DNA from: Paenalicyclobacillus mengziensis
GTDB lineage: Bacteria > Bacillota > Bacilli > Alicyclobacillales > Alicyclobacillaceae
Assembly: GCF_017298635.1 (NCBI RefSeq)
Contig: NZ_CP071182.1
Coordinates: 2,108,001-2,172,000 of the forward strand
Reading direction: 5' to 3'
DNA length: 64,000 nt
Numbering within the stretch: position 1 is the stretch's first letter; every line of letters starts with the position of its first letter. Of this stretch, positions 916 to 19,037 are shown one piece after another. The notes below the pieces were generated by a model. The model did no database searches. It saw nothing but the letters and a program-made list of their open reading frames with translations, and had not been told where the DNA came from. Made by a program: the position numbers and the translations under genes.

Positions 916-3597
916 GTGAAAATCTCAGTGACAGAAATTGTCGAATTGATTAAAGTGCTTGGATTTAGAGCGGTAGATGGAGCGTCAAATATTTATTATA
1001 AGAACTATTCAAGACACCATGACTACGTGATAAAAGTAGACGTTGATAAAGAAAAAATTGAATACGGTTCGAAAATTATCCTGGGTGACCACACGACAAG
1101 TAATTTTGAGAACAGTGAAAATTTTGTTGTATTGGAATGCGTTGACAGAGTCTTGGAAAAAGGCTATTCCCCTGATAGGCTCACGTTGGAACATAAGTGG
1201 AGAATGGGAAGAAATGAAAAAGGCAAGTTAGACATTCTTGTTACTGACAAGAGCGACAATGCCTATTTAATGATTGAATGCAAAACCTCGGGAGAAGAAT
1301 ACGAGAGAGAGAAAAGGAAGATGCAGCGTGATGGTGGACAGCTCTTTTCTTATTTCCAACAGGACAAAGCTGCCCAATATTTATGTCTATATAGCTCAAG
1401 ACTCCACAATGGACAAATTGAGTTCGTAAACGACATTGTACAGATTGACGAGCAATGGAAAGAACTGAATAATCAAAAGGAAATTTTTGATCATTGGAAC
1501 AAGAACTTCAAAGACAACGGGATTTTCGAAGAGTGGGCAAAACCGTACGACATTGAAATCAAAGCACTCACAAGGGGTAGATTAAAGGAACTCAACGAGG
1601 AGGATAGCAGTCGAATATTCAATCAATTTGCTGAAATCCTTCGCCATAATGTTGTTTCGGATAAGCCGAACGCCTTCAATAAAATTTTCAATTTATTCCT
1701 TTGTAAAATCGTTGACGAAGACCGCAAACCAACGGAAGAGCTAAAGTTTCAATGGCTGGAGTCAGATACCGACGAAGAACTACAAAAGCGACTTTCAGAC
1801 CTTTACAAACAGGGAATGAAAGAGTATTTGACTAAAGACGTTACTGACTACAACGACGAGCAGGTAGCAGGAAAACTGTATGCACTTGACCCCGAGGTAA
1901 GAGAACAAATTCGTGAAATGTTTACCCGTGTCCGATTGCACAAAAATAACGAATTTGCTTTCAAAGAAGTCTTTGACGAAAAATCATTTAGAGAAAATGC
2001 AATCGTTGTTCGTGAAGTCGTAGAGTTGCTTCAACCTTATCAAATACGTTACGGACATAAACAACAGTTCTTAGGTGACTTCTTTGAACTGCTGTTAAGT
2101 ACGGGCATCAAGCAGGAAGCAGGGCAGTTTTTTACGCCAGTACCCATTGCCAAATTTATTGTTTCTTCTTTGCCTATTCGTGAACTCATTGAGCGAAAAA
2201 TTGATAATGACGAAACTAACTTTCTACCGTATACCATTGACTATGCGGCAGGGAGTGGTCATTTTCTGACCGAAGCCATGGACGAAGTTCAAAGAATCCT
2301 TGAAAGTATTGAGCCTGACAAACAAAGACCTTCGGTCAAAGCGAAACTCAAAAGTTGGCGTGAGTCTCCGTTCGATTGGGCTTTTGAATATATTTACGGA
2401 ATTGAAGCCGATTATCGATTGGTTAAAACTGCCAAAGTAAGTTGCTTTTTGAATGGTGATGGTCTGGCAAATGTGATTCACGCTGATGGCTTAGACAATT
2501 TCCAAAAAAGCATCGACTACAAAGGGAAACTTAAAGAAATCAACAATGAAGACTCCATGTACAACGGACAGTTTGACGTTTTGGTAGCAAATCCGCCTTA
2601 TTCTGTATCGGCTTTCAAAAATACGTTGAAGTTTGGCGAAGAATCATTTGAGCTATATGACCGTCTAACTGACGATAGCTCGGAAATTGAATGTTTGTTT
2701 ATTGAACGCATGAAACAACTTTTAAAACCTGGCGGCTGGGCAGGTGTGATTCTACCAAGCTCCATTTTAAGCAATTCTGGTATTTACTCAGACGCAAGGG
2801 AACTCATTTTAAAATACTTCGACTTAAAAGCAATTGCTGAATTTGGTTCAAATACATTTATGGCAACAAACACCAACACAGTGACGCTGTTTTTGGAACG
2901 CAGACATAATAACGTATGGAAAATCGTTGAAACCGCCATAAAGAACTTCTTTGACAAACCCAAAGAAGCAGCAGTAAATGGCATTGAACAAGCATTCAGC
3001 AAGTATGTAGAAGCGGTTTTTGAAGGCTTGGAACTTGCTGATTACGTTTCATTACTAACAAAAAAACCGAATGAAAAAGTACTACATCAAGAATTGTTCA
3101 TCGACTATAAAAGTTGGTTCACTTCGCTTACAGAGGTAAAACAACTAAAAGACAGGAAGGCATTTAAAGAGAAGTCTAAAACAGAGCAACAGGAAGAATT
3201 GGACAAACTATTCTTCGAAAAAGTCCTTGCCCGTGAACAAGACAAAATGCTTTATTTCTTCTTGGTTTATGGCCAACAAACAGTTCTGATCAGAGTTGGA
3301 GATAAGCAAGCAGAGAAGGATTTTATTGGTTATGAGTTCAGTAATCGTAGAGGGCACGAAGGACTAAAAATGTATCGTGATGAAAGAGGAAAGCCGACAA
3401 CTAGACTTTATGATGAAGATAATCAATTGAACCCTGAAAAGGCAAACAGTTATGTTTATCGTTCGTTCTTACAACAGGAAGTAAGTGTTGATAAATCTCT
3501 GACAGATAACATAGCTGTATCGGATACAGTGGAGTTAATGGACTTCAAGACATTTGCATTTGACAAGTCTATCTCGTTGAATGTTAAAAAAAAATAG
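916..3597 (+). CDS. Restriction-modification protein: nuclease domain fused to N6-adenine methylase
   Basis: Predicted 893-residue enzyme that joins DNA cleavage and adenine methylation in one chain. The N-terminal ~180 residues look like the HsdR N-terminal nuclease fold: D106 in KLDILV and E121-x-K123 in MIECKT fit a PD-(D/E)xK site. The centre is an HsdM-type methylase, with the SAM motif around residue 442 (DYAAGSGHF) and the catalytic NPPY at 559-562. Start is GTG 916, preceded by GGGGAG. The specificity gene follows after 20 bases. No separate HsdR translocase is seen, so the pair resembles BcgI-type systems (nuclease-methylase plus HsdS) more than classical type I; that is inference. 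Codon use is more A+T-rich than in the helicase genes downstream, suggesting transfer. Confidence 0.85.
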   Translation: MKISVTEIVELIKVLGFRAVDGASNIYYKNYSRHHDYVIKVDVDKEKIEYGSKIILGDHTTSNFENSENFVVLECVDRVLEKGYSPDRLTLEHKWRMGRNEKGKLDILVTDKSDNAYLMIECKTSGEEYEREKRKMQRDGGQLFSYFQQDKAAQYLCLYSSRLHNGQIEFVNDIVQIDEQWKELNNQKEIFDHWNKNFKDNGIFEEWAKPYDIEIKALTRGRLKELNEEDSSRIFNQFAEILRHNVVSDKPNAFNKIFNLFLCKIVDEDRKPTEELKFQWLESDTDEELQKRLSDLYKQGMKEYLTKDVTDYNDEQVAGKLYALDPEVREQIREMFTRVRLHKNNEFAFKEVFDEKSFRENAIVVREVVELLQPYQIRYGHKQQFLGDFFELLLSTGIKQEAGQFFTPVPIAKFIVSSLPIRELIERKIDNDETNFLPYTIDYAAGSGHFLTEAMDEVQRILESIEPDKQRPSVKAKLKSWRESPFDWAFEYIYGIEADYRLVKTAKVSCFLNGDGLANVIHADGLDNFQKSIDYKGKLKEINNEDSMYNGQFDVLVANPPYSVSAFKNTLKFGEESFELYDRLTDDSSEIECLFIERMKQLLKPGGWAGVILPSSILSNSGIYSDARELILKYFDLKAIAEFGSNTFMATNTNTVTLFLERRHNNVWKIVETAIKNFFDKPKEAAVNGIEQAFSKYVEAVFEGLELADYVSLLTKKPNEKVLHQELFIDYKSWFTSLTEVKQLKDRKAFKEKSKTEQQEELDKLFFEKVLAREQDKMLYFFLVYGQQTVLIRVGDKQAEKDFIGYEFSNRRGHEGLKMYRDERGKPTTRLYDEDNQLNPEKANSYVYRSFLQQEVSVDKSLTDNIAVSDTVELMDFKTFAFDKSISLNVKKK

Positions 3598-3617
3598 CAA
3601 TTAATTCCAAATGGGAA

Positions 3618-4769
3618 ATGAAACGGCTTAGAGATTTGTGTAATTTTAAGAATGGACTATGGACAGGAAGTAAACTACCGTTGTTGAAGATGAGGGTTCT
3701 GCGCAACACTGATTTTACTTTAGATGGTTATTTAACATTTGAAAATGTAGCTGAAATTGAAGTGGAAGAAAGTCAATATCTGGAACGGAGAGTAGAACCC
3801 AACGATATTTTGCTGGAGAAATCAGGAGGAAGCCCTTCTCAGGCAATTGGAAGAGTTGCATTTTATACTGGGAACAGTAACGAGTTTTCATTTGGGAATT
3901 TCATTGCAAGAATAAGACCTGTTGATACAAAACAGCTTTTGCCAAAGTATCTCTGGGCTTGTTTAAATGACTTTTACCAACAGGGAGGAACTGTTTCGTT
4001 ACAAGGCGGCATGAGAATTTTAAACTTAGATTTTGAAGGGTATAAAAATATCAAAATTCCCCTTCCACCAAAATCCGTACAAGAACAAATCATTGAAGAG
4101 ATCACTGACATTGAACAGAAAGACAAGACAGGTCAGGCAAAATTAATTGAACTTAAGAACCAGCTAACACATTTGTTTTCTGACCTTAATTATCCAAGTG
4201 AAAAATTAGGCAACCTCGCTGAGTTTAAAAACGGACTCAATTACAACGAAGATAGCACAGGAGATTTAGTTACAGTTGTTGGTGTAAAGGATTTTCTTGA
4301 AAACTTCTCGCCTAATCTCGACAATCTTGAAGATGTGAGGATTGATGGGAAACTGAAAGAAAGTTACAAGCTGCAGCCTGAGGACATATTGGTAGTTCGT
4401 TCAAATGGTTCTGCTAACTTGGTGGGAAGGTTTATCTACATCGATAAGGTTTTGAAAGACCTTTCGTATTCAGGTTTTACGATTAGGATTCGGACTAATT
4501 CAGAAAAGGTCAATCCTAAATATTTGTGCTATTGTTTGCGAACAGAGAGCGTTCGAAATGCCATAACGAAAGACCCGCAGGGCGCAAACATCAAAAGCGT
4601 AAATCAAACCATGTTGTCGTCGATAAAGATTCCCCTTCCTGACATAAATGAGCAACTTACAATTATGAACAGGGCAGAAGAACTGGAGAGGCAGATATCC
4701 GCAATTAAAAGAGAGTTGGACAACGTGAACAATGAGAAAGAACTAGTGCTGAGAAAACATTTGGAATGA
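3618..4769 (+). CDS. hsdS: Restriction-modification specificity subunit (HsdS-like)
   Basis: Predicted 383-residue DNA-recognition subunit. The chain shows the duplicated layout of HsdS. The first target-recognition half (about residues 1-150) ends at a proline-rich boundary (KIPLPPKSVQEQI), followed by a helical spacer. A second half repeats the pattern and ends with KIPLPDINEQL and another helical spacer. Each half starts with a similar L-x-x-FKNGL-type segment (CNFKNGLW, AEFKNGLN). Two recognition domains imply a bipartite DNA site. It sits 20 bases behind the nuclease-methylase gene, so the two are almost certainly co-transcribed and form one complex. Which sequence is recognised cannot be read from the gene. 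Confidence 0.85.
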   Translation: MKRLRDLCNFKNGLWTGSKLPLLKMRVLRNTDFTLDGYLTFENVAEIEVEESQYLERRVEPNDILLEKSGGSPSQAIGRVAFYTGNSNEFSFGNFIARIRPVDTKQLLPKYLWACLNDFYQQGGTVSLQGGMRILNLDFEGYKNIKIPLPPKSVQEQIIEEITDIEQKDKTGQAKLIELKNQLTHLFSDLNYPSEKLGNLAEFKNGLNYNEDSTGDLVTVVGVKDFLENFSPNLDNLEDVRIDGKLKESYKLQPEDILVVRSNGSANLVGRFIYIDKVLKDLSYSGFTIRIRTNSEKVNPKYLCYCLRTESVRNAITKDPQGANIKSVNQTMLSSIKIPLPDINEQLTIMNRAEELERQISAIKRELDNVNNEKELVLRKHLE

Positions 4770-4791: not shown

Positions 4792-4982
4792 CATTACGAA
4801 ATGTGCAACAAAATTATGCGGAGTCGAACTTCTAGGCGGCTGCTTTGTTGTCCATAAAGCACCTATACAGTTAAATCTTAAACGGAGTTTGCTTGCCAGC
4901 CAGTTGTCAATAGCAGTATATTACCTTTGTACACGACAACGTTGCATGTCGGAGAAACCGCTGCATATAGACCGCTGCATGC

Positions 4983-5044
4983 AGGGGTAGAGCATCGCCT
5001 TGCCAAGGCGAGGGTCGCGGGTTCGAATCCCGTCTTCCGCTCCA
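4983..5044 (+). pseudogene. tRNA-Gly(GCC) 3' fragment, probable att site of an integrative element
   Basis: From AGGGGTAGAGC onward this matches a tRNA-Gly: anticodon loop TTGCCAA within a TCGCC/GGCGA stem, T-arm with GGTTCGAATCC, 3' acceptor strand CTTCCGC, discriminator T and CCA. The 5' acceptor strand (expected GCGGAAG) and the 5' half of the D-stem are absent; similarity stops abruptly at 4983. A near-repeat of ACCGCTGCAT (4958-4967 and 4971-4980) lies just before the break. Elements using tyrosine integrases leave an intact tRNA at one end and such a 3' copy at the other. The element would therefore lie to the left and include the restriction-modification genes, with the intact tRNA-Gly and integrase beyond the window. 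An intact tRNA-Ser directly follows. Confidence 0.75.
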
Positions 5045-5096: not shown

Positions 5097-5187
<91 letters not shown>

Positions 5188-5230: not shown

Positions 5231-5388
5231 GCTGTTTTTACAAGTTGATGGCTAATACATCCACATTTCTGCATTTATCCAATAAATTGTATGCTACCAT
5301 TATATAGAAAATGGCTTTCAATCAATGACGAAATGTGTTGGCTTTTACAAAGAGGCGCTAGATCAATCCTTGACCTATGAGGTGTCAT

Positions 5389-8300
5389 ATGAAACAAGGA
5401 CTTTATGAACAAGTTATAAATCGTCTCACTCAAAAGCAACTCTCTATCTTGGACATGTCTACATACGATATTGGCAAAGAGCCGTTGGATGCCGAAGAAG
5501 CAAAGAAACACCTTTCCAACTATATCTCTTCTGTGACGCGTAGAGCATTAACACTTGTTCGAGAACAAGCGGGCGATGACGGTTCTGTTTTGGCACAGGT
5601 ACATCTTTGCAACGACATTATATCAACCTTAAAGGGTTCACTTGGCGATAAAGAAGCAGATGAACTGGCGTTGGAGGAACAGGGCGAGGTTTTGACGTAC
5701 GTCTACTCCAAACTTAACACAGTGAGAGGGATTGCGGGTCAGAGAGCCCCCAAGGTTCTAAGACCTGCTACTTCATTGACGCAGAGTTCTTTGTTTACTG
5801 GATCTCATTCAGAGCCCAGTATGATGAGCGAGTTAAAACATGAAATAATGACAGCGGATCGCGTCGATTTTCTCGTGTCATTTATTAAGTGGAGTGGCAT
5901 TCGTATTTTGATGGATGAATTACGTCAGTTCACGTCCACTGGAGGAAAACTCCGACTAATTACGACAACATACATGAAAGCGACTGACTACAAAGCGGTA
6001 CAGGAGCTTGCCAAACTTCCCAACACCGAGATTAAAGTCTCCTATGACACACACAGAACTAGATTGCATGCGAAGGCTTACGTTTTTTATCGGGACACGG
6101 GGTTTACCACGGCTTATGTCGGATCGTCCAACATATCCAATCCCGCATTGACGAGCGGTCTGGAATGGAACCTTAAGGTCACGGAGAAAGATGCCTTCGA
6201 TGTACTTAAGAGAATCGAAGCGACTTATGAAACGTACTGGAATGATCGAGAATTTAAGGCATTTGAACCAGGTAACGCGTCGGACGCGACACGATTAGAG
6301 GCGGCTCTTAGCAATAGTGACAAGAAGGGAACAGACCTGGCTTTCAAATTTGACATCACACCATATGACTATCAGAAAGATGTTCTTGAGAAGCTTGATG
6401 CGGAGCGAACATTATATGGACGAACCCGGAACCTTGTGGTGGCTGCAACGGGCGTTGGAAAGACGGTCATTTCTGCATTCGATTTCAAGCGATTCGTGCT
6501 GCATAACCCCAGTTCGAGGTTGCTGTTTGTTGCACATCGTGAGGAGATTCTCAAGCAGAGTCGAGATACATTCCGATTCATCCTTAAAGACTTGAACTTC
6601 GGAGAGTTACAGGTAAAGAGTCAGCGTGCGCAGTCACTCGAACATCTTTTTGTGAGTATACAGAGTTTTCACTCAATCGGATTATCGCAGGCCACTTCCC
6701 CGGATTTCTATGACTTTATCGTTGTAGACGAGTTTCACCATGCTGCGGCACCATCCTACCAACAGCTGCTGAACTACTATCACCCTAAGGTTCTCCTCGG
6801 ATTGACAGCGACCCCGGAACGAATGGACGGCAAAGATATTTTGACCTACTTCGACGATACGATTGCGGCGGAGATCCGTTTGACCGATGCAATTGACCGT
6901 AAATTACTATGTCCTTTTCAATATTTTGCAGTCACGGATACGGAGGACTTGTCAAAGGTAAAGTGGTCACGTAAGGGGTATGACCTCAAGGAGCTCGAAT
7001 CCCTGTACACAGACAATAAAATTCGCGTTACACAGATTATGAATAGTCTGAAGAAATATGTTACGGACATTGACGATGTCAAAGGGCTTGGATTCTGTGT
7101 GAGTGTGAATCACGCTCTATACATGGCTAAGGTATTCAATGAGTCAGGGATACCAGCAATGGCACTTCATGGTGGCTCGTCAGATGAAGACAGGGATGAG
7201 GCAAAGGGCAGGTTGGTGCGCGGCGAGATCAAAATGATTTTCGTCGTAGATCTATACAATGAGGGTGTGGATATTCCCGAAGTCAATACCATCTTGTTTC
7301 TTCGCCCCTCTGAGAGTTTGACAGTATTCTTGCAGCAACTTGGACGCGGACTTCGCCTTTCTGATGATAAGGAATGTCTCACAGTTCTTGATTTTATTGG
7401 ACAGGCACATAAGGAATATAACTTCGAGGAAAAGTTTAGGGCTCTGATTGGCAAGACGAAACATCGTGTCCAGCATTATGTTGAAAACGGATTTTCCAAT
7501 CTCCCCCGGGGAAGCTTCATTCAGCTCGAGAAACAGGCTAAGGATTATATCTTGAACAACATCAAGAAGGCAGTCGTCAATAAAAATCGTCTTGTGCAAA
7601 GAATGAAACAGTTTGAAGCTGATACGGGAATGAAATTGGCCCTCGAAAACTTTGTGATGTATCACCGCATGTCGCTCAACGATTTTTACGGAAACAGAAA
7701 TTCCGGACGGACATTTCGTGGATTAATGGTACAGGCCGGACTGCATGAACCATTCAACATCACGGATGGGGATTCACTCATCAAGCGGATCCCATCCCTC
7801 TTGAGCATTGACAGTAGGCCCTTGCTGAAGTTTCTCATCGGTTACATCGAGGAAGGTTACCGGCCGCAGACACAAGTGGAGCAGATAATGATGAACATGT
7901 TCTACTATACTTTCTATCGATATGCGCCGGACAAGGCTGGTTTCTCTAGTATCGAAGAAGCTGTTGCATTCATCCTGTCTTCGGACGTGTTTCGAAGGGA
8001 AATCATTGATATTTTTAAGTACAATGATGCCCATTTGTCATTTGTGGCGAAAGAAAGCCAGTTTCCTTTTCCTTGTCCACTACAGGTCCATTGCAGGTAC
8101 TCGGTCGATCAGGCGTTGGCGGCCTTCGGGTACTGGAATGGTGAGAGTGCACGACCGTTTCGTGAAGGCGTGCTGTATTTAGAGGATAGGAACACGGACA
8201 TCTTCTTCATTACACTCAACAAATCGGAGAAAGACTACTCTCCATCGACACTGTATGAAGACTATGCGATAAACGAGAGACTGTTTCATTGGCAAACGCA

Positions 8301-8544
8301 AGCGCGTACTTCTACCGATTCACCTACCGCGCAGAGGTATATTCATCATAGGGAAAGAGGGAGTCATATTGCGCTATTTGTGAGAGAGTTTAAAGAGGAA
8401 AATGGTGTCGCCTCTCCTTACATGTTTCTTGGTGAAGCTGATTATGTTCGCCACGAGGGGAGCAAACCGGTTAGCTTTGTATGGCGTTTGAGGAAAGATA
8501 TGCCTGCGGCATTGGTGCCTGTAGCAAAGAAAGGGATAGTGTAG
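5389..8544 (+). CDS. PLD-domain SF2 helicase with DUF3427-type C-terminus
   Basis: A 1051-residue DNA-dependent ATPase/helicase. After ~130 residues comes a phospholipase-D-like domain with a single H-x-K site (H227-A-K229 in RLHAKAYVFYRD, then GSSN), as in PLD-type nucleases. Next are the helicase lobes: Walker A ATGVGKT near 353-359, motif II DEFHH at 447, LTATPER, and motif VI QQLGRGLRL. The last ~350 residues match the DUF3427 type seen in large SF2 helicases. I chose ATG 5389 over ATG 5377 because GAGGTG sits 6 bases upstream of it. It heads a run with Nudix, MazG-like and second PLD-helicase genes, a setting typical of defence islands. Target and exact role are unknown. Confidence 0.85.
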   Translation: MKQGLYEQVINRLTQKQLSILDMSTYDIGKEPLDAEEAKKHLSNYISSVTRRALTLVREQAGDDGSVLAQVHLCNDIISTLKGSLGDKEADELALEEQGEVLTYVYSKLNTVRGIAGQRAPKVLRPATSLTQSSLFTGSHSEPSMMSELKHEIMTADRVDFLVSFIKWSGIRILMDELRQFTSTGGKLRLITTTYMKATDYKAVQELAKLPNTEIKVSYDTHRTRLHAKAYVFYRDTGFTTAYVGSSNISNPALTSGLEWNLKVTEKDAFDVLKRIEATYETYWNDREFKAFEPGNASDATRLEAALSNSDKKGTDLAFKFDITPYDYQKDVLEKLDAERTLYGRTRNLVVAATGVGKTVISAFDFKRFVLHNPSSRLLFVAHREEILKQSRDTFRFILKDLNFGELQVKSQRAQSLEHLFVSIQSFHSIGLSQATSPDFYDFIVVDEFHHAAAPSYQQLLNYYHPKVLLGLTATPERMDGKDILTYFDDTIAAEIRLTDAIDRKLLCPFQYFAVTDTEDLSKVKWSRKGYDLKELESLYTDNKIRVTQIMNSLKKYVTDIDDVKGLGFCVSVNHALYMAKVFNESGIPAMALHGGSSDEDRDEAKGRLVRGEIKMIFVVDLYNEGVDIPEVNTILFLRPSESLTVFLQQLGRGLRLSDDKECLTVLDFIGQAHKEYNFEEKFRALIGKTKHRVQHYVENGFSNLPRGSFIQLEKQAKDYILNNIKKAVVNKNRLVQRMKQFEADTGMKLALENFVMYHRMSLNDFYGNRNSGRTFRGLMVQAGLHEPFNITDGDSLIKRIPSLLSIDSRPLLKFLIGYIEEGYRPQTQVEQIMMNMFYYTFYRYAPDKAGFSSIEEAVAFILSSDVFRREIIDIFKYNDAHLSFVAKESQFPFPCPLQVHCRYSVDQALAAFGYWNGESARPFREGVLYLEDRNTDIFFITLNKSEKDYSPSTLYEDYAINERLFHWQTQARTSTDSPTAQRYIHHRERGSHIALFVREFKEENGVASPYMFLGEADYVRHEGSKPVSFVWRLRKDMPAALVPVAKKGIV

Positions 8545-8596
8545 AGATGGTTCCCCGAGAAGCGGGATCGTGTTTAGAGAAAAAGGGGTGCCAGGT

Positions 8597-8986
8597 TTGA
8601 AACAAGTACACGTCGTTGGAGCGGTCATGGTGCATGAACAACAGAAAATACTCTGTGCACTTCGGTCCGAACAAATGTCGCTCAGTGGACTGTGGGAATT
8701 CCCGGGAGGGAAGATTGAGCCGGGAGAAACGTCAGAGCAGGCGTTGGCACGAGAGATTCACGAAGAGTTGGGCTGTACAATTGAAGTCGGTGACTTTGTG
8801 GTCACTTGCACTCACGAGTATCTGAATGTGTGTGTTCAACTTGATACATATTATGCCGAGATTATTTATGGAACCCCAGTTGCAAAGGAACATCAAAAAC
8901 TGGAATGGGTAAATACAGACGCGTTACAGAAGCTCGAGTGGGCGCCAGCTGACATGCCAACAGTGCAGACGCTAATGAAGAAGTAG
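8597..8986 (+). CDS. Nudix (deoxy)nucleoside triphosphate pyrophosphohydrolase
   Basis: A 129-residue MutT-like enzyme expected to hydrolyse (deoxy)nucleoside triphosphates, possibly modified ones, to monophosphates. The full Nudix box is visible: GG-KIEPGE, then a helix with REIHEELG, matching Gx5Ex7REUxEExGU. Length is typical of MutT. I prefer TTG 8597, eight bases behind AAAGGGG, over the in-frame GTG 8570, because MutT proteins usually begin just before the VHVVGA strand. It starts 52 bases behind the helicase stop and 12 bases before the MazG-like gene, so the four genes look like one operon. The local substrate is inferred only from the family. Confidence 0.88.
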   Translation: MKQVHVVGAVMVHEQQKILCALRSEQMSLSGLWEFPGGKIEPGETSEQALAREIHEELGCTIEVGDFVVTCTHEYLNVCVQLDTYYAEIIYGTPVAKEHQKLEWVNTDALQKLEWAPADMPTVQTLMKK

Positions 8987-8998
8987 GAGGTCAAACAC

Positions 8999-9325
8999 AT
9001 GCCTACATACAACAAGCTTGTACGAGACAGGATAGCGGATATCATTCGGGAAAACGGAAAAACGCTATCCTCTAGGATACTCGAGCACGGTGAGTATGTT
9101 GAGGCGTTGAAGGTCAAATTTAACGAAGAGTGGCGCGAGTACAACGAAGCGCCAGATGATACGCATGCCATAGAAGAATTGGCTGATATGCTGGAGATTC
9201 TCTACAATCTTGCGAAACTTCATGGGGTTGACGAAGAAGTGGTGAATGAAGTCTGTCAGAGGAAGCGTCGGGAGCGCGGCGGCTTCTCAGATAAGGTATT
9301 TCTGATAGAGGTTTCAGATGACTGA
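8999..9325 (+). CDS. MazG-like / phosphoribosyl-ATP pyrophosphohydrolase-like protein
   Basis: A 108-residue all-alpha NTP pyrophosphatase of the MazG/HisE-like superfamily. It opens with the characteristic YNKLVRDRI. E-x-x-E pairs follow in the metal-binding helices (KFNEEWREYNEA and AIEELADMLEI), and the end is GGFSDKVFLIEV. AGGAGG lies 9 bases before ATG 8999. The end overlaps the next helicase by 8 bases, implying translational coupling. Members remove pyrophosphate from nucleotides; proteins of this short kind are often named phosphoribosyl-ATP pyrophosphohydrolase-like without evidence of histidine synthesis, and no his genes are near. With the Nudix gene it puts two nucleotide-pool enzymes between two helicases. 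Confidence 0.85.
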   Translation: MPTYNKLVRDRIADIIRENGKTLSSRILEHGEYVEALKVKFNEEWREYNEAPDDTHAIEELADMLEILYNLAKLHGVDEEVVNEVCQRKRRERGGFSDKVFLIEVSDD

Positions 9326-11333
9326 CGTAAGAATTATCACCGGCAATCTATCTGAGCACATTATACCGGCCTTGTCTGATTCCAACGCCGTTTATATGGT
9401 CGTATCCTTCGCCATGGCGTCCGGTGTTCGGATGCTATTGCCTTACTTGCGATCTGCCGTTGAACGCGGAGCTGACATCAAGATTCTGACTGGTGACTAC
9501 CTTCACGTGACGGAACCAGCGGCACTCTCCATGTTGATGGATTTAGGCGCTGCTGCTGAAGTTCGTCTATGGAAGAGTAACGGGATTGCCTTTCACCCGA
9601 AGGCGTACCTCATTGGCGTTGGTAGCGACGAGACGACGATTATTGTCGGATCGTCCAATTTATCCAAATCTGCAATGACGACCGGGGTAGAGTGGAATCT
9701 CGCGCTGAACTCAAAGGCTGCTCCTGAAACAGTGGAAGAGGCTTATCACGAATTTATGAGACTCTTCTATCACGAGCAAACCGTTCCCGTTAACCAACAA
9801 ACCCTCTTCGAGTATGACATCGAGTACAGGAGGCATTACGCACGTCGGAATACCGGTGAAAATCCATGGGCCGATCCGGAATCGAAAACACCGGAACCAG
9901 TGCACCGTGAACAACCCTCGATTGTTCGCGACCATTCCTCGTCATATACGCCAATTTCCCCAAACAAGGCACAACACGATGCATTGCAGGAACTTCACGG
10001 TTCAATCGAGGATGGCTACGACAAGGCGATGGTCGTTATGGCCACGGGGCTCGGGAAGACTTATCTTGCTGCTTTCCTAGCGAGAGAGTTTAAACGTGTT
10101 TTGTTCATTGCACATCGGGAAGAATTGCTGGTACAAGCGCAGCGGTCGTTTCGGAGTGTGTTGCCTTATCGAACAATGGGAATCTTCAACGGGTTACAAA
10201 AGGAATCCGGGACGGATTGCGTGTTCGCCTCTATTTTTACCCTTGCCATGGCACGACATCGAAAGCGGTTTGGACCCGATGACTTTGACTTGATTGTTGT
10301 CGACGAGTTTCATCACGCAGCCGCTAAGTCGTACCAGGCTCTACTAGACCACTTTCGACCCAAGTTTCTGCTCGGGCTGACTGCGACACCAGATAGGGCA
10401 GATGGGATAGACATCTATGCCCTATGTGATGGGAACGTGGCTTACCGCACGCACTTTATCGAGGCGATTCAAAATGAGTGGCTCTCTCCATTCAAGTATT
10501 TTGGTGTGTATGATGAAACAGATTACTCGAGGATAACCTGGCTCGGTACCCGATATGACGAAGATGAACTGGCAGCCCATCAGCTCAGGGATGAAGCAGC
10601 CGATGCCATCTACGAGGCCTGGGCTGAACACAAGCAGACGCGCACGATCGGGTTTTGCTCGTCCATACGCCAGGCGAACTTTCTAGCGAAACACTTCGCT
10701 AACAGTGGCGTTCGGGCACTCAGCTTGCATTTACAGACAGCCGAGATGTCACGCCAACAAGCAATACGTAGCCTTGCCAGTGGTGACCTTGACGTTATCT
10801 TCACCGTGGACTTGTTCAACGAGGGCGTGGATATTCCCAATGTCGATACCCTGTTGTTTGTGAGGCCCACTGAATCCCTCACCGTATTTACTCAACAGAT
10901 AGGGCGGGGGCTTCGCCTACATAGAGACAAGGATTATTGCGCGATTATCGATTTGATAGGGAATTATCGTAATGCAGATGTGAAGCTACGTGTCTTTGAC
11001 TCAAAGAGTGCCTGGGCAGACACCGAAAGTAAGAGCAGTATTACGATTCCGGTAGTGCCCTCAAGCTGCGAGATTCACTTGGACACCATGGTAGTTGACC
11101 TCATTCAAGAGATGAGCAGAAAACGCCATCCGCGGAAGGAACGCCTGCTACAGAATTATCGTGATGTGAAGCGATTGTTAGGACATCGGCCATCGTATCT
11201 TGAGGTTCACCTTCAGAGTGCTGTAGATGTGAAAGCATATCGACAGGAATTCGGCAGCTACGTGGGGTTTCTACAATGGGCTGGGGAATTAACGGACGAG
11301 GAAATCGAGGTTTATGAGCGGCACAAGTCTTGA
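9318..11333 (+). CDS. PLD-domain SF2 helicase, main part before an in-frame TGA
   Basis: 671 residues. A phospholipase-D-like domain fills the N-terminal ~160 residues (H93-P-K95 in FHPKAYLIG, then VGSSNLS). SF2 helicase lobes follow: Walker A ATGLGKT at 242-248, DEFHH at 329, LTATPDR, and QQIGRGLRL near 530. It is a shorter paralogue of the helicase at 5389, without that protein's long C-terminus. Start ATG 9318 overlaps the MazG-like stop. The frame ends at TGA 11331-11333 but continues in the same frame for another 138 codons carrying the family's usual C-terminal segment. This is therefore either a nonsense-truncated gene, a split gene, or a leaky TGA (followed by C). The ATPase core is complete upstream of the stop. 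Confidence 0.85.
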   Translation: MTDVRIITGNLSEHIIPALSDSNAVYMVVSFAMASGVRMLLPYLRSAVERGADIKILTGDYLHVTEPAALSMLMDLGAAAEVRLWKSNGIAFHPKAYLIGVGSDETTIIVGSSNLSKSAMTTGVEWNLALNSKAAPETVEEAYHEFMRLFYHEQTVPVNQQTLFEYDIEYRRHYARRNTGENPWADPESKTPEPVHREQPSIVRDHSSSYTPISPNKAQHDALQELHGSIEDGYDKAMVVMATGLGKTYLAAFLAREFKRVLFIAHREELLVQAQRSFRSVLPYRTMGIFNGLQKESGTDCVFASIFTLAMARHRKRFGPDDFDLIVVDEFHHAAAKSYQALLDHFRPKFLLGLTATPDRADGIDIYALCDGNVAYRTHFIEAIQNEWLSPFKYFGVYDETDYSRITWLGTRYDEDELAAHQLRDEAADAIYEAWAEHKQTRTIGFCSSIRQANFLAKHFANSGVRALSLHLQTAEMSRQQAIRSLASGDLDVIFTVDLFNEGVDIPNVDTLLFVRPTESLTVFTQQIGRGLRLHRDKDYCAIIDLIGNYRNADVKLRVFDSKSAWADTESKSSITIPVVPSSCEIHLDTMVVDLIQEMSRKRHPRKERLLQNYRDVKRLLGHRPSYLEVHLQSAVDVKAYRQEFGSYVGFLQWAGELTDEEIEVYERHKS

Positions 11334-11747
11334 CTTGAAGAAGTTGAGAAGACGGGCATGACAAAGAGCTACAAGATGGTTGTACTGTTGGCCATGCTGG
11401 AGCGGGGAAAGCGGGGCTGGACGGAGTCTGTGACACCGAAAGATGTTGCGCCATTTTTCCATAACTACCTGTTAGAGAAAGAGTATCGCAAGAAAATCGA
11501 CTTCTCGGACAGAACGCTGCAAAAGCTGTGGAAGTATGATGAAGTGGGTGTGAGCCGCCTGATTGCTACCATGCCGATGGCCATGTGGGCAGGATCGTCA
11601 AAAGGATTGGTTTCGTTTGGGGATGGGATGTTCAGGCTGGAGTTTGATGTGAGGTCGGTGGATACGGCAAAGCTGTGCGAGTGGACGAGGGAGATTTGTG
11701 AGTACCGCCTGCATTCGTATTTTGAGCGGAAGGGGAAGTCATCCTAG
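11334..11747 (+). pseudogene. C-terminal segment of the PLD helicase, separated by the in-frame TGA
   Basis: In the same frame as the helicase and without any shift, the sequence resumes as LEEVEKTGM and then TKSYKMVVLLAML. It continues for 138 codons through a conserved-looking region (DVAPFFHNYL, IDFSD, MPMAMWAGSSKG, EICEYRLHSYFER) to TAG 11745-11747. From memory this is the usual C-terminal domain of PLD-DEAD/DEAH helicases of ~810 residues. An ATG at 11358 could start an independent 129-residue product, but no good ribosome site precedes it. Whether it is expressed separately, by readthrough or not at all cannot be told from sequence. Confidence 0.75.
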
Positions 11748-12668: not shown

Positions 12669-13193
12669 CGACGTGAGCAGAGTTCGAACGAAACCTACGG
12701 ATCGGAGGCTTCGCTATGACGGGTGCGGTTGCTTTAGTGTTTGTCGTTTGTCGGCATGATCGCTTTGGTCGTGATCGGCGTGATCACTGTGATGGCTATG
12801 CTCATCGATCCACGCAACAATTGCCCTTATCCTCTGTTCTATGAGAATCAAGACTATTATTTGTCCATTCGGTCTAATGCGCATGAGGCCGTCACGTTTC
12901 ATCACGACTCACCTTTGATTCGGAACGCGGTGCACCAGGAATACGATGATCACCTTTCCGGACACCTCAACTTTCGCACAGAGGTTGGGTTGACAGAATT
13001 GGTGGTCCGGCATCCAAGCCTGTTTGCACCCAATATTCTGGCGAAGCTCGATGCGGTCAGAACACCCTATCTGCATAGAGGGCTATGCTGTACTACGTAG
13101 GCACCGGAAAATATCTTGGGCGCCAACGACGTACGGAAGCTTTTGAACATAAGAGCCTTCGTCAAAACACGACACACGTAAAAGGACATGTTC
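12669..13193 (+). other. Gap of 525 bases, no convincing gene
   Basis: An open frame at 12741-13100 (119 codons, TTG start, hydrophobic N-terminus MIALVVIGVITVMAMLI) could encode a small membrane protein. It overlaps a His/Asp-rich repeat on the other strand, has no clear ribosome site and matches nothing I know. AAAGGA at 13181-13186 is the ribosome site for the next gene at 13194. Confidence 0.35.
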
Positions 13194-15971
13194 ATGAACG
13201 AAAACCGATACCTGGTGCTGTTAAAAGGAAAAGACAAGACCCGGGATGTGCAGAGCTTTGACCGACAAGGCCAGGTTATTGTAGTGAATTTTATCAACTC
13301 GCCCAGGAAATACACCTATATTTTCCGGGATGTACAAATCCTTGAGGCGCGATCCGTGACAGACCTGTCGAACAACCAGGTGGTGTACCAGGGAAACGTT
13401 CCTGTTCCTGGAATTCGGAGGGTAGTTGATTTCGGCAGGGTGGTCAAGCTTATCCCGGAGCGTAGGGCTGGAAAAGTGTACGATGCCGGAGATGTTCAGG
13501 TCGAAGGGAACGGCCTTAGAACGGTTGAAGGGGCGCGTGTCCTTGAGTACTTCTACAGCATCGCGAGGTATGCATCGGTGTCAGATGGTATTGCAGGCAC
13601 GAACACGTTTTTACAACAACAGTTTGCGAAACTTAAGCCGTTTACGAGCCCACGGAGTGTTCTGGCAGCTTATTTGAACCGTTCTCCTGTGCGGGTGGAA
13701 CCTCAGACGAGTTTAGACACTGTGTTTCCATTCAGGTTCAACCTGAGCCAACGAGAAGCACTGAAAAACGCCCTGCGTAGCCAGATCTCTATCATTGAGG
13801 GACCGCCAGGCACCGGGAAGACACAAACCATCCTGAACATCTTGGCAAACCTCGTGCTCCAGGATAAGACCGTGGCTGTCGTATCAAGCAACAACGCGGC
13901 TGTCCAGAATGTTCAAGATAAATTGAATGCTAAAGGGTACGCTTTTCTTGTGGCGGCGCTCGGCAATTCTGCGAATCGGAAACGGTTCTTCGAGGCCCTA
14001 CCTCGCGCAGATATCTCAGGTTGGGCAACGATAGAGTCCGATGGCAATCCGCCGCTGAGAAAACAGTTGAGCCAACTTAATCGGAAAATCGAGCAATTAA
14101 TGTCCGTCGAGCGAGAGCGTGCGAGACTGCAACATCAGCTATCTGCATACCGATTGGAGCAGGAACATTTTGAAGCTTTTTATGAGAGCCAGAACGTTGC
14201 CGAGACAAGAGCTCCGTCGTTCTTTCGACCCACGCCAAATCGATTGCTTTCTTTCTTGGCGGAGATGCGATTTGTCGAAGCGCTCGACAAGATTTCGTTA
14301 CTACGACGATTGTGGAACCTCTTTCGGTACGGACTGATTAGCCTAAAATCATCTGGTCGCAATGCCGAAGCGCTTCTCTTCATCCAGCGGAAATACTACA
14401 ACGTCAAAATCGAGCAGCTGGCCGCAAAAATTACGGTGCTGGACAATCAACTCAGTCAAGAGGACTTTCCATCCCTCTTATCACAGCATCAGGAGATTTC
14501 TGAACGCCTGTTCCGACAATATCTTCACCAGAAGTACCAGACTCCACGTCCTGGGTTTGGTCCTATCAGCTACAAGAGGCAGTTCGAACAGTTTGTGAAC
14601 ACATACCCGATCATGCTCAGTACCACGCACTCGCTACTGAATTGTATTCCGGAGAACTTCTTATTTGATTACGTTATCATTGATGAATCCTCACAGGTCG
14701 ATCTCGTGACCGCGTCACTCGCTTTGTCCTGTGCCCAGAATGCCATCATCGTGGGAGATACAAAGCAGCTTTCTCAGATTGTCGATATGAGAATCCAAAC
14801 GAGAATATCGACAACGGATCAGTTTTCAGGCACAACCTACGACTACTTTCACCATAATATTCTGTCGTCATTGATGAGCCTGTATGGTGACACATTACCG
14901 AGAACGATGTTGAGAGAACACTATCGCTGTCATCCGAAGATTATTGATTTTTGCAACCAGAAGTACTATGACGGTCAGTTGATCCCGTTTACGACCGAAA
15001 ATGAGGGAGACGTCCCTCTGATTATCTATCGGACTGCCGAGGGCAACCATATGAGCCGCTTAAGTCATGGGAATAGAGGCAGGTTCAATCAGCGTGAGCT
15101 AGATGTCATTGAGCATGAGGTTTTGGGACGCAACAATACCTTTGAGAATCTGGATTACACGGATATTGGACTCACGACGCCATATCGAAAACAGGTTGAA
15201 AAGGCTGCTGGTCAACTAGATACTACAATTGAAAAGGATACGATTCACAAGTACCAGGGTCGAGAGAAACGGGTTATGATTTTGTCCACAGTGCTGGATA
15301 GCTCGGCGGCAGGTAGAAAGGGACTGGAGTTCGTTAACGACCCATGCATGATAAACGTCGCTGTATCGCGGGCGCAGGAAAGGCTGATCCTGGTCACTGA
15401 CCACTCCATGTTCCGCACCACCCAGAGTGAAATCGGTGACTTGCTGCGGTATATGGAGTACAACACACTAGATGAACATATCATCGACAGCGACATCGTC
15501 TCTGTTTTCGATTTGCTCTATAAGGATTACTCGGACAAGCTCCGGGAACTGCGACGAAAGGTGAGAAGGCGATCAAACTACGATACTGAGAATATCATGT
15601 CAGCCCTCGTACAAGAGATTCTGTTGGATGTCCGCTATCAGGGCCTGGCATACAGAGAGCAAGTATTTGTGTGGAACCTGTTGCGCGACTTTAGCAAGTT
15701 GACTCCTGATGAGAAGCGCTATGTGCAAAACGGCGCCTCAGTGGATTTCGTGATATATCGAAAAGTAGACAAGGCTCCGGTTTTGGTCATCGAGGTGGAC
15801 GGATTTACCTATCACGAGGACAATCCTCGGCAGCTCGCGCGTGACGTCATGAAGAATAAAATCTTTGCAAGCTATAGCCTGCCGTTACTTCGTCTACCAA
15901 CCAACGGTAGTGAGGAGCAAGGTAAAATTCGCGGGAAGCTGGATGAGGTCCTAGTGGGATTGCAACGCTGA
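13194..15971 (+). CDS. SF1 (UPF1-like) helicase with C-terminal nuclease-like domain
   Basis: A 925-residue helicase. The UPF1/DNA2-type core has Walker A GPPGTGKT at 203-210, motif II DESSQVD near 497, LREHYRCHP, a UvrD-type C-terminal segment (IHKYQGREKRV) and VAVSRAQERL. The middle insertion is helical. The last ~130 residues contain SVDFVIYR (about 850) and IEVDGFTYHED (about 866), the pattern of a Vsr/DUF2726-type PD-(D/E)xK nuclease. I chose ATG 13194 because AAAGGA lies 7 bases upstream; ATG 13188 is too close to it. It lies between the PLD-helicase cluster and the Wadjet operon. Proteins with this layout are common in defence islands; specific partners are unknown. Confidence 0.82.
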   Translation: MNENRYLVLLKGKDKTRDVQSFDRQGQVIVVNFINSPRKYTYIFRDVQILEARSVTDLSNNQVVYQGNVPVPGIRRVVDFGRVVKLIPERRAGKVYDAGDVQVEGNGLRTVEGARVLEYFYSIARYASVSDGIAGTNTFLQQQFAKLKPFTSPRSVLAAYLNRSPVRVEPQTSLDTVFPFRFNLSQREALKNALRSQISIIEGPPGTGKTQTILNILANLVLQDKTVAVVSSNNAAVQNVQDKLNAKGYAFLVAALGNSANRKRFFEALPRADISGWATIESDGNPPLRKQLSQLNRKIEQLMSVERERARLQHQLSAYRLEQEHFEAFYESQNVAETRAPSFFRPTPNRLLSFLAEMRFVEALDKISLLRRLWNLFRYGLISLKSSGRNAEALLFIQRKYYNVKIEQLAAKITVLDNQLSQEDFPSLLSQHQEISERLFRQYLHQKYQTPRPGFGPISYKRQFEQFVNTYPIMLSTTHSLLNCIPENFLFDYVIIDESSQVDLVTASLALSCAQNAIIVGDTKQLSQIVDMRIQTRISTTDQFSGTTYDYFHHNILSSLMSLYGDTLPRTMLREHYRCHPKIIDFCNQKYYDGQLIPFTTENEGDVPLIIYRTAEGNHMSRLSHGNRGRFNQRELDVIEHEVLGRNNTFENLDYTDIGLTTPYRKQVEKAAGQLDTTIEKDTIHKYQGREKRVMILSTVLDSSAAGRKGLEFVNDPCMINVAVSRAQERLILVTDHSMFRTTQSEIGDLLRYMEYNTLDEHIIDSDIVSVFDLLYKDYSDKLRELRRKVRRRSNYDTENIMSALVQEILLDVRYQGLAYREQVFVWNLLRDFSKLTPDEKRYVQNGASVDFVIYRKVDKAPVLVIEVDGFTYHEDNPRQLARDVMKNKIFASYSLPLLRLPTNGSEEQGKIRGKLDEVLVGLQR

Positions 15972-16164: not shown

Positions 16165-17727
16165 ATGAGGCTCGTCCACTATACTGATGAGGTAGAATCA
16201 GTCGTCTTGCAAAGGATGAGTGCGGTGCAACGAAATCAGGCCAGAGAGCTCTGGGTAAAGCCTGTTCCGGAGCTGAAGTACCTGAACGCGGATAACGTCT
16301 CCCGTTATCGTCTAATCATGCGCTATTTCTATGAAAATCACAGCAAACTGAGGTATTGGCTGAAACCAGAAGAAGTCTTCTCTGGCGTCATGCACTACGG
16401 GTTGCTTGACGATTACACGGAGGACCAGTGCCAACGCGACCTCGAGGTACTGACAGAGTGGAAGAACCTGACCAGCCGCCACGACGGTGGCCGGGCGCAG
16501 TCTATCGAGGAGTATCTCCGCAAACGGTTCCGCTACCAGATGACACCGTACGCCATTGAGATTGAGCGGATGCTGCAGACCCTGGAACAACTACAGGGTT
16601 ATGGGGGTTCCCTTGAGCCAGCGCTGCTCGAGCGCATCGCTGGATATATTGCACAGATTCGACAGGCCGAGGGACAGTTTGCTGCAGGGGCGGCACACCA
16701 ACTGTGGCGTGACCTGCAGAGCGCGTTTCGACAGTTGCATGAAAGTGCCTCCGACTACCTGGCGAGCCTGCAGACAGCGCGGGTGGAGGAACTGATGTTG
16801 ACTGATCAGTTTCTTATCTTTAAAGACACGCTGACACAGTACCTGCGAGATTTTGTCCGTGGGCTGCAACAGTACGGCGTTCATGTGGAAGCGATGTTTC
16901 GGCAAACACCACAGACGGTGTGGCAGTCCTTTCTCATGGCACTTGTTGAGGATGAAAAACGGTTGCCGATGTTTGATAACCCTCTTGCAGACGATGAACG
17001 GATGGCACTTCACCAGGAAGAGTGGCAGGTCCTCGAGCAGTGGTTCGTCGGTAGCGCCACGGAGGCAAGTGACGTTTTATATCTGGAGCGACAGACGAAG
17101 GACACGATTGCGCGGGTGGTCCGTTATGCACTCGCAATTCAGGAACGGCATCAGGTAGGGGTTAGCCGGCGACGGGAACTCGAGTCACTCGGACTGCGTT
17201 TCCTCGAGCTGGACAACCCGGAAGAAGCGCACAAGCTCGGGGCATATGCTTTTGGTTTGTATCAAACGCGCCATTTCCAAGGCGAGGGAGACGCATCTTC
17301 GGATGCGGCAGACTTCTCCATGTGGGATGAGAAACCGATTGTGAGACGGCTACGGTCGCGTAGTCGGGGACAACGCAAATCTGGCGGCACCGAATCGATT
17401 CGAAGCACCAGGGTGCAACGACAAGAGGCAGCTAAGGCGATACTCGAGGCGAAGAAGCGGGAAGCGACGTTAGTGAAAACGTGGATTGACATGAAACATC
17501 TGCGCATGAGTGAACTGCCAACCTTGTCTCCTGAACAGAGAATACTGCTCCTGCAGTGGATTGGCCGCTGCATGGTCAATCAGTCCAAACTTGCCCGCAC
17601 ACCAGACGGTTTGGAGATTCGTCTGATTTTACCAGAGAATGGAGAACGGACGCGGTTGCAGTTTACGGACGGCGCACTCGAGGTACCAGACTTTGAGTTG
17701 TTCGTCGAGGAGGTTGCGAGCTCATGA
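16165..17727 (+). CDS. jetA: Wadjet type II component JetA (TIGR02677/DUF2397-like)
   Basis: A 520-residue kleisin-like subunit of an SMC-type anti-plasmid complex. The N-terminal third has the hallmark segments VPELKYLNADNVSRYR, RYWLKPEEVF and EEYLRKRFRYQMTPYAIEIER, which I recognise from the TIGR02677 family. The rest is helical. AGGAGAGG precedes ATG 16165. The stop overlaps the jetB start by ATGA, so the operon is tightly coupled. In Wadjet systems JetA, JetB and JetC form a MukBEF-like loop extruder and JetD cuts the DNA. Family assignment is from memory of conserved segments plus gene order; no domain search was run. Confidence 0.87.
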   Translation: MRLVHYTDEVESVVLQRMSAVQRNQARELWVKPVPELKYLNADNVSRYRLIMRYFYENHSKLRYWLKPEEVFSGVMHYGLLDDYTEDQCQRDLEVLTEWKNLTSRHDGGRAQSIEEYLRKRFRYQMTPYAIEIERMLQTLEQLQGYGGSLEPALLERIAGYIAQIRQAEGQFAAGAAHQLWRDLQSAFRQLHESASDYLASLQTARVEELMLTDQFLIFKDTLTQYLRDFVRGLQQYGVHVEAMFRQTPQTVWQSFLMALVEDEKRLPMFDNPLADDERMALHQEEWQVLEQWFVGSATEASDVLYLERQTKDTIARVVRYALAIQERHQVGVSRRRELESLGLRFLELDNPEEAHKLGAYAFGLYQTRHFQGEGDASSDAADFSMWDEKPIVRRLRSRSRGQRKSGGTESIRSTRVQRQEAAKAILEAKKREATLVKTWIDMKHLRMSELPTLSPEQRILLLQWIGRCMVNQSKLARTPDGLEIRLILPENGERTRLQFTDGALEVPDFELFVEEVASS

Positions 17728-19037
17728 ACACACGTCGACGAAGACGGAGCATGCTGACATCGCCGGACTTTACTGAGGATAGGCAGATGGCGGTTCAGGC
17801 CCTCCTCAATCGGCCTTTTGTGTCTCGACAGCACGATCCCGAGACGTATCAATTGGTGCGCGAGCACTTCCGAACGCTGCGCGACTGGTTTCATGAGCAG
17901 ACGGGCTGGGCGCTGATTGTGACGCGGCAGTTTGCCAAGCTGGAGAAGACACCTGGCCGTTACCAGTCGTGGATGGCGATTGAAGGTTTTCGCGACGGAC
18001 GCGACTACGGCTACTTTACCTATGGACTGTGGTTCCTCGAGGGACTGAATGAAGGCCAGCAGTTCCTGCTGTCAGAGATGGTTGAAGCGATTCGCGAGCA
18101 CCTGGTAGCGGCTGGTCTGTTTGTCGATTGGACGGTGTATGACCACCGCATGTCGATGGCCCGCGCACTGAAAAAGCTGCGGGAGCTCGATGTGCTTGTG
18201 GCGGTGGAAGGTGACGAGACGGACTGGGCGCGGGTCGGTGACGCAGATGTCTTGTACCAGGCATCCTCTCTATCCCGCTATGTGTTGCAGCGCCTACCGG
18301 ATGACATCGGAGACTTTGCCTCCATCACGATGGAGGAAGGGGATGGACCAGCCGACAGTTCATCCCACCATGCAGCGGATGACGCCTCAGATGGAATCAA
18401 CGTACGTGACTCGGACAACTCGGGGTATCAGGACGCTCAGGCCGATCCGCTGCAGCACCTCGAATCCTCCGACGTGTTCGCGACAGTTCGCCGGCGCCAT
18501 CGAGTGATGCGTCGACTGCTGCAGGAGCCCGTGGTTTACGACTGGCAGTGGACGGAAGATGAACGGCGCTATGTGCAGACACAGCGGGCTTCAATTATCG
18601 ACCGGATGGAGTCGCTCACAGGACTCCAGGGCCGGCGATTTCGCGAGGGGCTGCTATTTGTTTGGCCAGACTTGACTTCGGAAAGCAGCCTCTTCCCGAC
18701 CCTCGGCGTCCGCTCTGACATTGCGCTGCTCATCTCCGCTGCGCTTGCAAAGCGACTTCAGGGGCCGACGGTGCAGTATGACAGCCATGAGAACGGTTGT
18801 TACCATCTCACCCGTAGCGACATGGAGTCTCTTGTACGCGAGGTCCGTGAGGCATCCGGTGATTATTGGAGCAAGGAGTATCGGGAGCTGTCTACCTCGC
18901 GAGTGGCGGAAGATGCCATCGCACACATCTGTGAATGGAACCTCGGTGCACACAGCGACGGGGGCGGGTTGGTCGCCTATCCCGCGCTTTTGCGCTGGGC
19001 CGGGGAATACGAAGTGGAAGGAAGTGATGGGGAGTGA
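17724..19037 (+). CDS. jetB: Wadjet type II component JetB (TIGR02678/DUF2398-like)
   Basis: A 437-residue, largely helical protein corresponding to the KITE/winged-helix subunit (MukE-like) of the Wadjet complex. Typical segments are ALLNRPFVSRQHDPE, GWALIVTRQFAKLEK and KKLRELDVLVAVEGDE. A hydrophilic Asp/Ser-rich stretch near residues 195-235 is less conserved-looking and probably a flexible loop. ATG 17724 overlaps the jetA stop and its own stop overlaps the GTG of jetC (GTGA), so the three genes should be made in fixed ratio. Function is inferred from the family and gene order. Confidence 0.86.
   Translation: MNTRRRRRSMLTSPDFTEDRQMAVQALLNRPFVSRQHDPETYQLVREHFRTLRDWFHEQTGWALIVTRQFAKLEKTPGRYQSWMAIEGFRDGRDYGYFTYGLWFLEGLNEGQQFLLSEMVEAIREHLVAAGLFVDWTVYDHRMSMARALKKLRELDVLVAVEGDETDWARVGDADVLYQASSLSRYVLQRLPDDIGDFASITMEEGDGPADSSSHHAADDASDGINVRDSDNSGYQDAQADPLQHLESSDVFATVRRRHRVMRRLLQEPVVYDWQWTEDERRYVQTQRASIIDRMESLTGLQGRRFREGLLFVWPDLTSESSLFPTLGVRSDIALLISAALAKRLQGPTVQYDSHENGCYHLTRSDMESLVREVREASGDYWSKEYRELSTSRVAEDAIAHICEWNLGAHSDGGGLVAYPALLRWAGEYEVEGSDGE

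Follow-up and report, generated by a model that had tools for sequence, protein, structure and literature searches.

The best described relative of the enzymes considered here is SauUSI, a staphylococcal type IV restriction enzyme that cuts DNA containing 5-methylcytosine or 5-hydroxymethylcytosine, and that restricts alone in E. coli as a single active polypeptide (PMC3874153; here and below, papers are cited from excerpts). Those excerpts describe it as a single enzyme with no partner (PMC7913695, PMC3874153), and one figure legend mentions MutT beside SauUSI homologues (PMC7641849); in the excerpts of the literature searched we found no statement of a general pairing with a hydrolase, of the MazG-H2 pair described below, or of a mechanism. 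In PADLOC, whose models were used for the comparison with defence systems, mREase_IV covers the helicase and PDC-S07, a separate entry, the Nudix protein. Here we describe a gene cluster in a 64,000-nucleotide stretch of the Paenalicyclobacillus mengziensis genome (contig NZ_CP071182.1, positions 2,108,001 to 2,172,000; hereafter the window), where two helicases, H1 and H2, each with a phospholipase D-like (PLD) nuclease domain and a superfamily 2 (SF2) ATPase, bracket a Nudix hydrolase and a MazG-like nucleoside triphosphate (NTP) pyrophosphohydrolase. The cluster is two two-gene modules, H1-Nudix and MazG-like-H2. We tentatively propose, as a reading somewhat short of an even chance, that in each of them a SauUSI-like nuclease is accompanied by its own hydrolase, which likely cleaves 5-modified deoxycytidine triphosphate (dCTP) and thereby spares host DNA. 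Overall, the cluster appears to be a form of type IV restriction in which each nuclease has a nucleotide hydrolase dedicated to it; how the two work together is a hypothesis grounded in the comparisons that follow.

The association of each hydrolase with its helicase was measured in 250 genomes of the class to which the window belongs, its own genome included, searched with the helicase and MazG-like proteins. The sampled genomes are related and hence not independent, and because few candidates in each genome were scored in the helicase search (at E<=1e-60), absences are not firm. Helicases were assigned to types from their score and length, T3 denoting a third group of about 1,075 amino acids. 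A MazG-like gene lies directly upstream of 53 of the 58 H2-type genes, adjacent to H2 or overlapping it by a few bases, as against none of the 73 other PLD-helicases (these include, in G081, one H2 fragment located at the end of a contig). The same distribution is seen by genus, with MazG-like genes in all 30 genera that have H2 and in 12 of the 76 that do not (16 of 76 if omitted fragment hits are counted); eight of 97 MazG-like rows, seven fragments and one weak match, were omitted, which leaves 85 of 90 genomes counted. At the named loci with an intact H2 the pair is adjacent by the scripted rule in 11 of 12, and at the twelfth, L053, the stop-to-stop ORFs have a longer overlap. Among the five H2 genes that lack an adjacent MazG-like gene, three have a HIT-family protein in its slot, one has a MazG-like gene about 0.9 kb away, and one has neither. 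The HIT-family genes directly upstream of H2 are at 4579-4950 in L131, 7110-7481 in L129 and 4600-5001 in L132, the assignment being made by a Pfam run on the L131 protein.

Such tight coupling in 53 of 58 cases, together with the exchange of the MazG-like protein for a HIT-family one, which PADLOC relates (for the L131 protein) to a Thoeris HIT protein, would also suit a regulatory arrangement, in which the nuclease would be under the control of the hydrolase, through destruction of an activating nucleotide signal or through direct binding. We regard this as improbable: SauUSI is reported to be active as a single polypeptide (PMC3874153), and the Nudix gene is often convergent with its helicase (in 11 of 30 SauUSI-type and 13 of 17 T3 pairs), unlike most operon-borne regulators.

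The Nudix association extends to three of the four helicase types. Counting single open reading frames (ORFs) of at least 700 amino acids, with broken genes, identical sequences and loci L089-L128 left out, Nudix genes at a distance of at most 300 bp accompany 30 of 38 SauUSI-type, 17 of 18 T3-type and 31 of 87 H1-type genes, or 78 of the 143 non-H2 genes overall; the remoter flanks, 1.71 Mb in all, yielded 10 further Nudix hits. The profile first used was built from Nudix genes of these same loci, and PDC-S07 provides an independent model, which all four of the linked Nudix proteins tested match. It identifies 96 Nudix genes in 92 of the 250 genomes, and these are present in 61 of the 72 genomes with a non-H2 PLD-helicase and 31 of the 178 others (odds ratio 26, p=1e-23); because the genomes are related, the count by genus is the safer figure (36 of 43 genera with such a helicase and 12 of 63 without, p=2e-11). 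A helicase match is found no more than 2.2 kb away from 50 of these 96 genes. The helicase at L215, near-identical in kind to SauUSI (1616 bits), has a Nudix gene directly upstream. We note also that in L279 (OR849961.1), an unverified 3.9-kb contig labelled as Staphylococcus phage that is probably mislabelled host DNA, a Nudix ORF overlaps a SauUSI-like ORF (1255 bits to the L215 helicase) by 8 nt stop to stop.

Placement of the Nudix gene varies by group: the two genes are convergent, or the Nudix gene is in tandem either upstream or downstream of the helicase. A tree of 115 Nudix proteins, built on few columns and with 26 open forks, requires eight label changes for the H1-linked proteins, at least four of them forced by well-supported branches, and places the window Nudix with T3-linked and unlinked genes, outside the main cluster of 20 H1-linked ones. 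These several lineages and orientations point to repeated linkage of Nudix genes to the helicases, and they weaken shared ancestry alone as the cause of the pairing. Random co-location is rejected by the pairing counts per gene, genome and genus and by a control on small genes. Of 698 such genes lying over 2 kb away from the helicases, 140 were scanned with Pfam; NUDIX does not appear among the 25 of 75 families listed, which include every family with at least two members, so that it has at most one, and two of the control genes are MazG-like by their coordinates. No alternative partner emerged at the loci without Nudix, where 45 of 48 small neighbours were scanned (three H1 fragments being dropped) and no family had more than two members, one protein being MazG-like. 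Nor did inspection by eye of 37 loci with unlinked Nudix genes reveal a partner recurring across distant genomes.

The initial annotation had proposed the four genes as a candidate undescribed defence system that it could not match to a named one, and a single undescribed four-gene system is not supported. PADLOC recognizes both H1 (mREase_IV, 765 bits) and the Nudix protein (PDC-S07, 173 bits), and both helicases match SauUSI or type IV models. The layout itself is largely as first described: the PLD-SF2 helicases bracket the two hydrolases, all on the plus strand, with gaps of 25 nt between H1 and Nudix and 12 nt between Nudix and the MazG-like gene, and an 8-nt overlap between the MazG-like gene (ending at 9325) and H2 (starting at 9318). 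The second helicase is not simply a shorter paralogue of the first, being split by a TGA codon. Co-occurrence of the families elsewhere is likewise confirmed for the pairs, and the exact order H1-Nudix-MazG-H2 is found at only one of 80 named loci (L021). All four families are present together at six of the 80, four of which (L014, L017, L047 and L053) have them contiguously as MazG-H2-H1-Nudix, and these cases are what speaks for a single four-gene system. That reading is very improbable, as the two pairs are found apart in most genomes and H2 is broken here; a four-gene operon as the usual unit is rejected on the same grounds.

H1 is, as judged from its sequence, a SauUSI-superfamily type IV (modification-dependent) restriction enzyme, and cleavage of modified DNA is predicted. 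H1 and H2 are both assigned to this superfamily because both match SauUSI by sequence, H1 also matching the methyl-directed type IV model mREase_IV over almost its full length (residues 120-1046). H1 contains the Pfam domains PLDc_2, ResIII, Helicase_C and DUF3427, the last of which is absent from H2, and the HxK, GSSN, Walker A and DEFHH motifs are all present. Its alignment with SauUSI (PDB 7clg, E=7.6e-88) reaches residue 919 of 953, that is, into the SRA target-recognition domain. Of five SauUSI residues named as belonging to the pocket for 5-methylcytosine (PMC7913695), F841, I842, D858 and W868 are, by eye, kept at the aligned H1 positions, and Y831 is not. H1 differs from SauUSI in about 110 additional N-terminal residues and is set apart from the SauUSI type by score as a separate clade; the start at 5389 is the second ATG of the ORF that opens at 5377, and it agrees with the relatives, many of which align from residue 5. 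A second H1-like gene in the same genome (L240, G000:C1:2239187-2246014), 51-54% identical, is in three pieces parted by two identical copies of the insertion element that interrupts jetD2 in the window (see below), and no Nudix gene was found in the 15-kb stretch around it.

H2 likewise combines a PLD nuclease with an SF2 ATPase in the manner of SauUSI-type enzymes, as seen from its Pfam domains (PLDc_2, ResIII and Helicase_C), its motifs and its match to SauUSI (E=3.8e-84), which stops at SauUSI residue 665; its C-terminal domain is probably a different one. In the window the frame is interrupted by a TGA at 11331-11333 and resumes in the same frame as a 129-amino-acid ORF, which has no Pfam match but can be aligned to the C-terminal end of intact H2 relatives. 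Both parts form one ORF of 811-862 amino acids (stop to stop) at 12 named loci, and the column holding the TGA carries an amino acid in all 12 of these intact relatives. Only pieces of H2 are present at seven further named loci, so that it is broken elsewhere too. H2 is probably truncated or inactive in this genome, whether the cause may be decay or a sequence error, and therefore the cluster may be only partly functional in its present state. The predicted structure of an intact relative (mean predicted local distance difference test score 81, predicted template modelling score 0.49) retrieves SauUSI first with Foldseek; with VIA-align RadD is first and SauUSI 35th, the latter with the longest alignment listed (517 residues) and a large root-mean-square deviation. 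Folded alone, the C-terminal region is predicted to be mainly helical with a small hairpin and has no clear match among solved structures. H2 probably reads its target through this domain, different from that of H1, and the domain is a possible new reader of modified DNA.

The identity of the hydrolases suggests what they might do. The window Nudix protein matches Pfam NUDIX and, over residues 11-137 of its 138 amino acids, PDC-S07, which is a PADLOC label without a mechanism and is here tied to PLD-helicase restriction enzymes. Its Nudix box and PAD motif are intact and both are common to NudG, and its nearest solved relatives are 5x1x, 3ees and NudG itself (2rrk). The MazG-like protein scores under the Pfam gathering cut-off (20.6 vs 27 bits); many of its named relatives are titled 'MazG superfamily NTP pyrophosphatase' or 'nucleoside triphosphate pyrophosphohydrolase', and the E-E-x-x-E ... 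E-x-x-D pattern (E43, E44, E47, E60 and D63) is kept in 120-121 of 121 aligned rows. Both families include known, specific 5-methyl-dCTP hydrolases, namely Orf135/NudG among Nudix proteins and RS21-C6/DCTPP1 (PMC10742078), the latter being MazG-like (PMC4491611), and from this we infer that 5-modified dCTP is what the partners remove from the nucleotide pool. The likeness to these enzymes is one of family: the window Nudix is below the NudG cut-off (NCBIfam PRK10546, 111 of 156 bits), and among PDB chains the MazG-like protein has no match to DCTPP1, its sole hit being another protein at E=0.27.

A more general house-cleaning role could be drawn from the same proteins, with the hydrolases removing oxidised or mutagenic nucleotides in the manner of MutT and being linked to the helicases through damaged DNA or the repair synthesis that follows cutting. 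Relatives of the Nudix protein are named MutT, and the window protein, again below the cut-off, comes nearer to MutT (NCBIfam TIGR00586, 89.7 of 97.9 bits) than to NudG; both hydrolase families have many unlinked copies, a single match to the NudG model is found in the genome itself at E<=1e-10, and loss of NudG raises mutation rates (PMC5158307). Such a role leaves unexplained why MazG-like genes prefer H2 so strongly over the other PLD-helicases, as well as why Nudix genes stand beside three of the four types, and we judge it distinctly unlikely.

The favoured reading, protection of self DNA from 5-modified dCTP, starts from the consideration that a cell with a modification-dependent nuclease must stay free of the mark, because such a nuclease has no methyltransferase to label self. 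H1 would recognize 5-methyl- or 5-hydroxymethyl-cytosine through its SRA-like C-terminus, translocate at the expense of ATP, and cut with its PLD domain, much as SauUSI does. Modified dCMP or dCTP could enter the host pool after restriction of modified DNA, or from a phage that makes modified precursors, and polymerases would then insert the modified triphosphate into host DNA, so that the nuclease could no longer tell self from foreign. The Nudix or MazG-like enzyme is predicted to destroy the triphosphate first and so keep self unmarked, filling the place that the methyltransferase occupies in ordinary restriction systems. A hydrolase acting as an accessory guard, not as a subunit, fits with this because SauUSI restricts alone in E. 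coli. E. coli has a NudG of its own. The proposal suggests a simple and testable answer to how a host stays unharmed by modified cytosine that finds its way into the nucleotide pool, and it offers a role for PDC-S07 and for a widespread MazG-like family. With regard to the earlier suggestion of a helicase-nuclease coupled to pyrophosphohydrolases, the link is conserved and sanitising of the pool is retained here as a proposal, whereas nothing specific supports depletion of the pool during phage replication.

The hydrolase could also be pictured as a weapon, in a two-layer attack on phages with modified cytosine: the nuclease would cut their DNA, and their own modified precursor, for example 5-hydroxymethyl-dCTP, would fall to the hydrolase. 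The same linkage counts for MazG-like/H2 and Nudix/helicase would be expected, both m5C and hm5C are targets of SauUSI (PMC3874153), and PADLOC lists the Nudix protein as a stand-alone candidate for phage defence; yet 46 of the 96 PDC-S07 genes have no PLD-helicase close by, an arrangement that suits a general function no less than a weapon. We consider a two-layer attack unlikely, while noting that the present data do not separate the roles of guard and weapon.

Several observations weigh against protection of self DNA as we propose it, beginning with those 46 unlinked PDC-S07 genes. No Nudix gene lies within 300 bp of 56 of the 87 H1-type genes, and one adjoins only one of 10 distant plasmid relatives. 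Unlinked Nudix genes have the PAD aspartate just as often (32 of 32), the best solved relative of the window Nudix carries a MutT label, and E. coli MutT is only weakly active on 5-methyl-dCTP (PMC3744803); the cut-off scores given above for NudG and MutT tell in the same direction. For the second module, 36 of 89 MazG-like copies are not beside H2 (the contexts of all 36 were fetched), and HIT enzymes do not obviously fit modified dCTP as a substrate. At five of those 36, all from a single genus (L136, L138, L139, L149 and L152), a Nudix gene stands beside a MazG-like gene with no helicase in the fetched stretch, and neither hydrolase is directly beside any of 37 McrC matches, judged by eye from coordinates.

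The MazG-like gene also occurs directly upstream of four of 18 McrB-like (MrcB_N) genes (L140, L146, L147 and L151), all in one bacterial family, the McrB-like identity being established by Pfam in all four and a McrC-like neighbour in two. McrBC, likewise a type IV system, differs from the enzymes described here in having an AAA_5 ATPase and PD-(D/E)XK nuclease domains. Part of the H2 C-terminal domain is similar to the N-terminus of the McrB-like proteins, both in a hidden Markov model search (E=4e-6 for one protein) and by hhalign (92%, E=5e-7 over 41 columns). These few cases hint that the hydrolase partner follows the recognition domain of the nuclease. The broader idea that type IV enzymes have a self-protection partner, a pool hydrolase (Nudix, MazG-like or HIT) recruited repeatedly according to recognition domain, even to McrBC-type enzymes, is doubtful at this stage.

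Table 1. Genes of the two modules and the adjacent tRNA in the window
Feature	Position	Strand	Assignment and basis
H1	5389..8544 (longest ORF from 5377)	+	SauUSI-superfamily PLD nuclease, SF2 ATPase and DUF3427/SRA-like C-terminus
Nudix hydrolase (PADLOC PDC-S07), partner of H1	8570..8986	+	Pfam, PADLOC, intact Nudix box
MazG-like all-alpha NTP pyrophosphohydrolase, partner of H2	8999..9325	+	Weak Pfam match, names of relatives, conserved acidic pattern
H2, first part (PLD nuclease and SF2 ATPase, in-frame TGA at end)	9318..11333	+	Pfam, SauUSI match, intact relatives
H2, C-terminal part (separate 129-aa ORF, same frame)	11358..11747	+	Alignment with intact H2 C-termini; in-frame continuation from 11334
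tRNA-Ser	5097-5186		Upstream of H1

Other features flank the modules. Ahead of the tRNA-Ser gene, a sequence resembling, by eye, the 3' part of a tRNA-Gly gene is present at about 4977-5043, where ARAGORN makes no call, and it may mark an integration site; just before tRNA-Ser, at 916-4769, are genes for a type IIG-like methyltransferase and a type I-like specificity protein. On the other side, positions 13188-15971 encode a 927-residue superfamily 1-type helicase with a C-terminal DUF2726 and partial matches to Mokosh helicase models. The proximity to Wadjet claimed at the outset was borne out, as PADLOC identifies JetA2, JetB2, JetC2 and an interrupted JetD2 within 16165-26902, adjoining the cluster. 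The jetD2 gene is in two halves (23510-24331 and 26162-26902), between which lies an insertion element with a 537-residue transposase-like ORF; an identical stretch, 24294-26115 in the window, is present in 11 full-length copies in the genome at approximately 100% identity.

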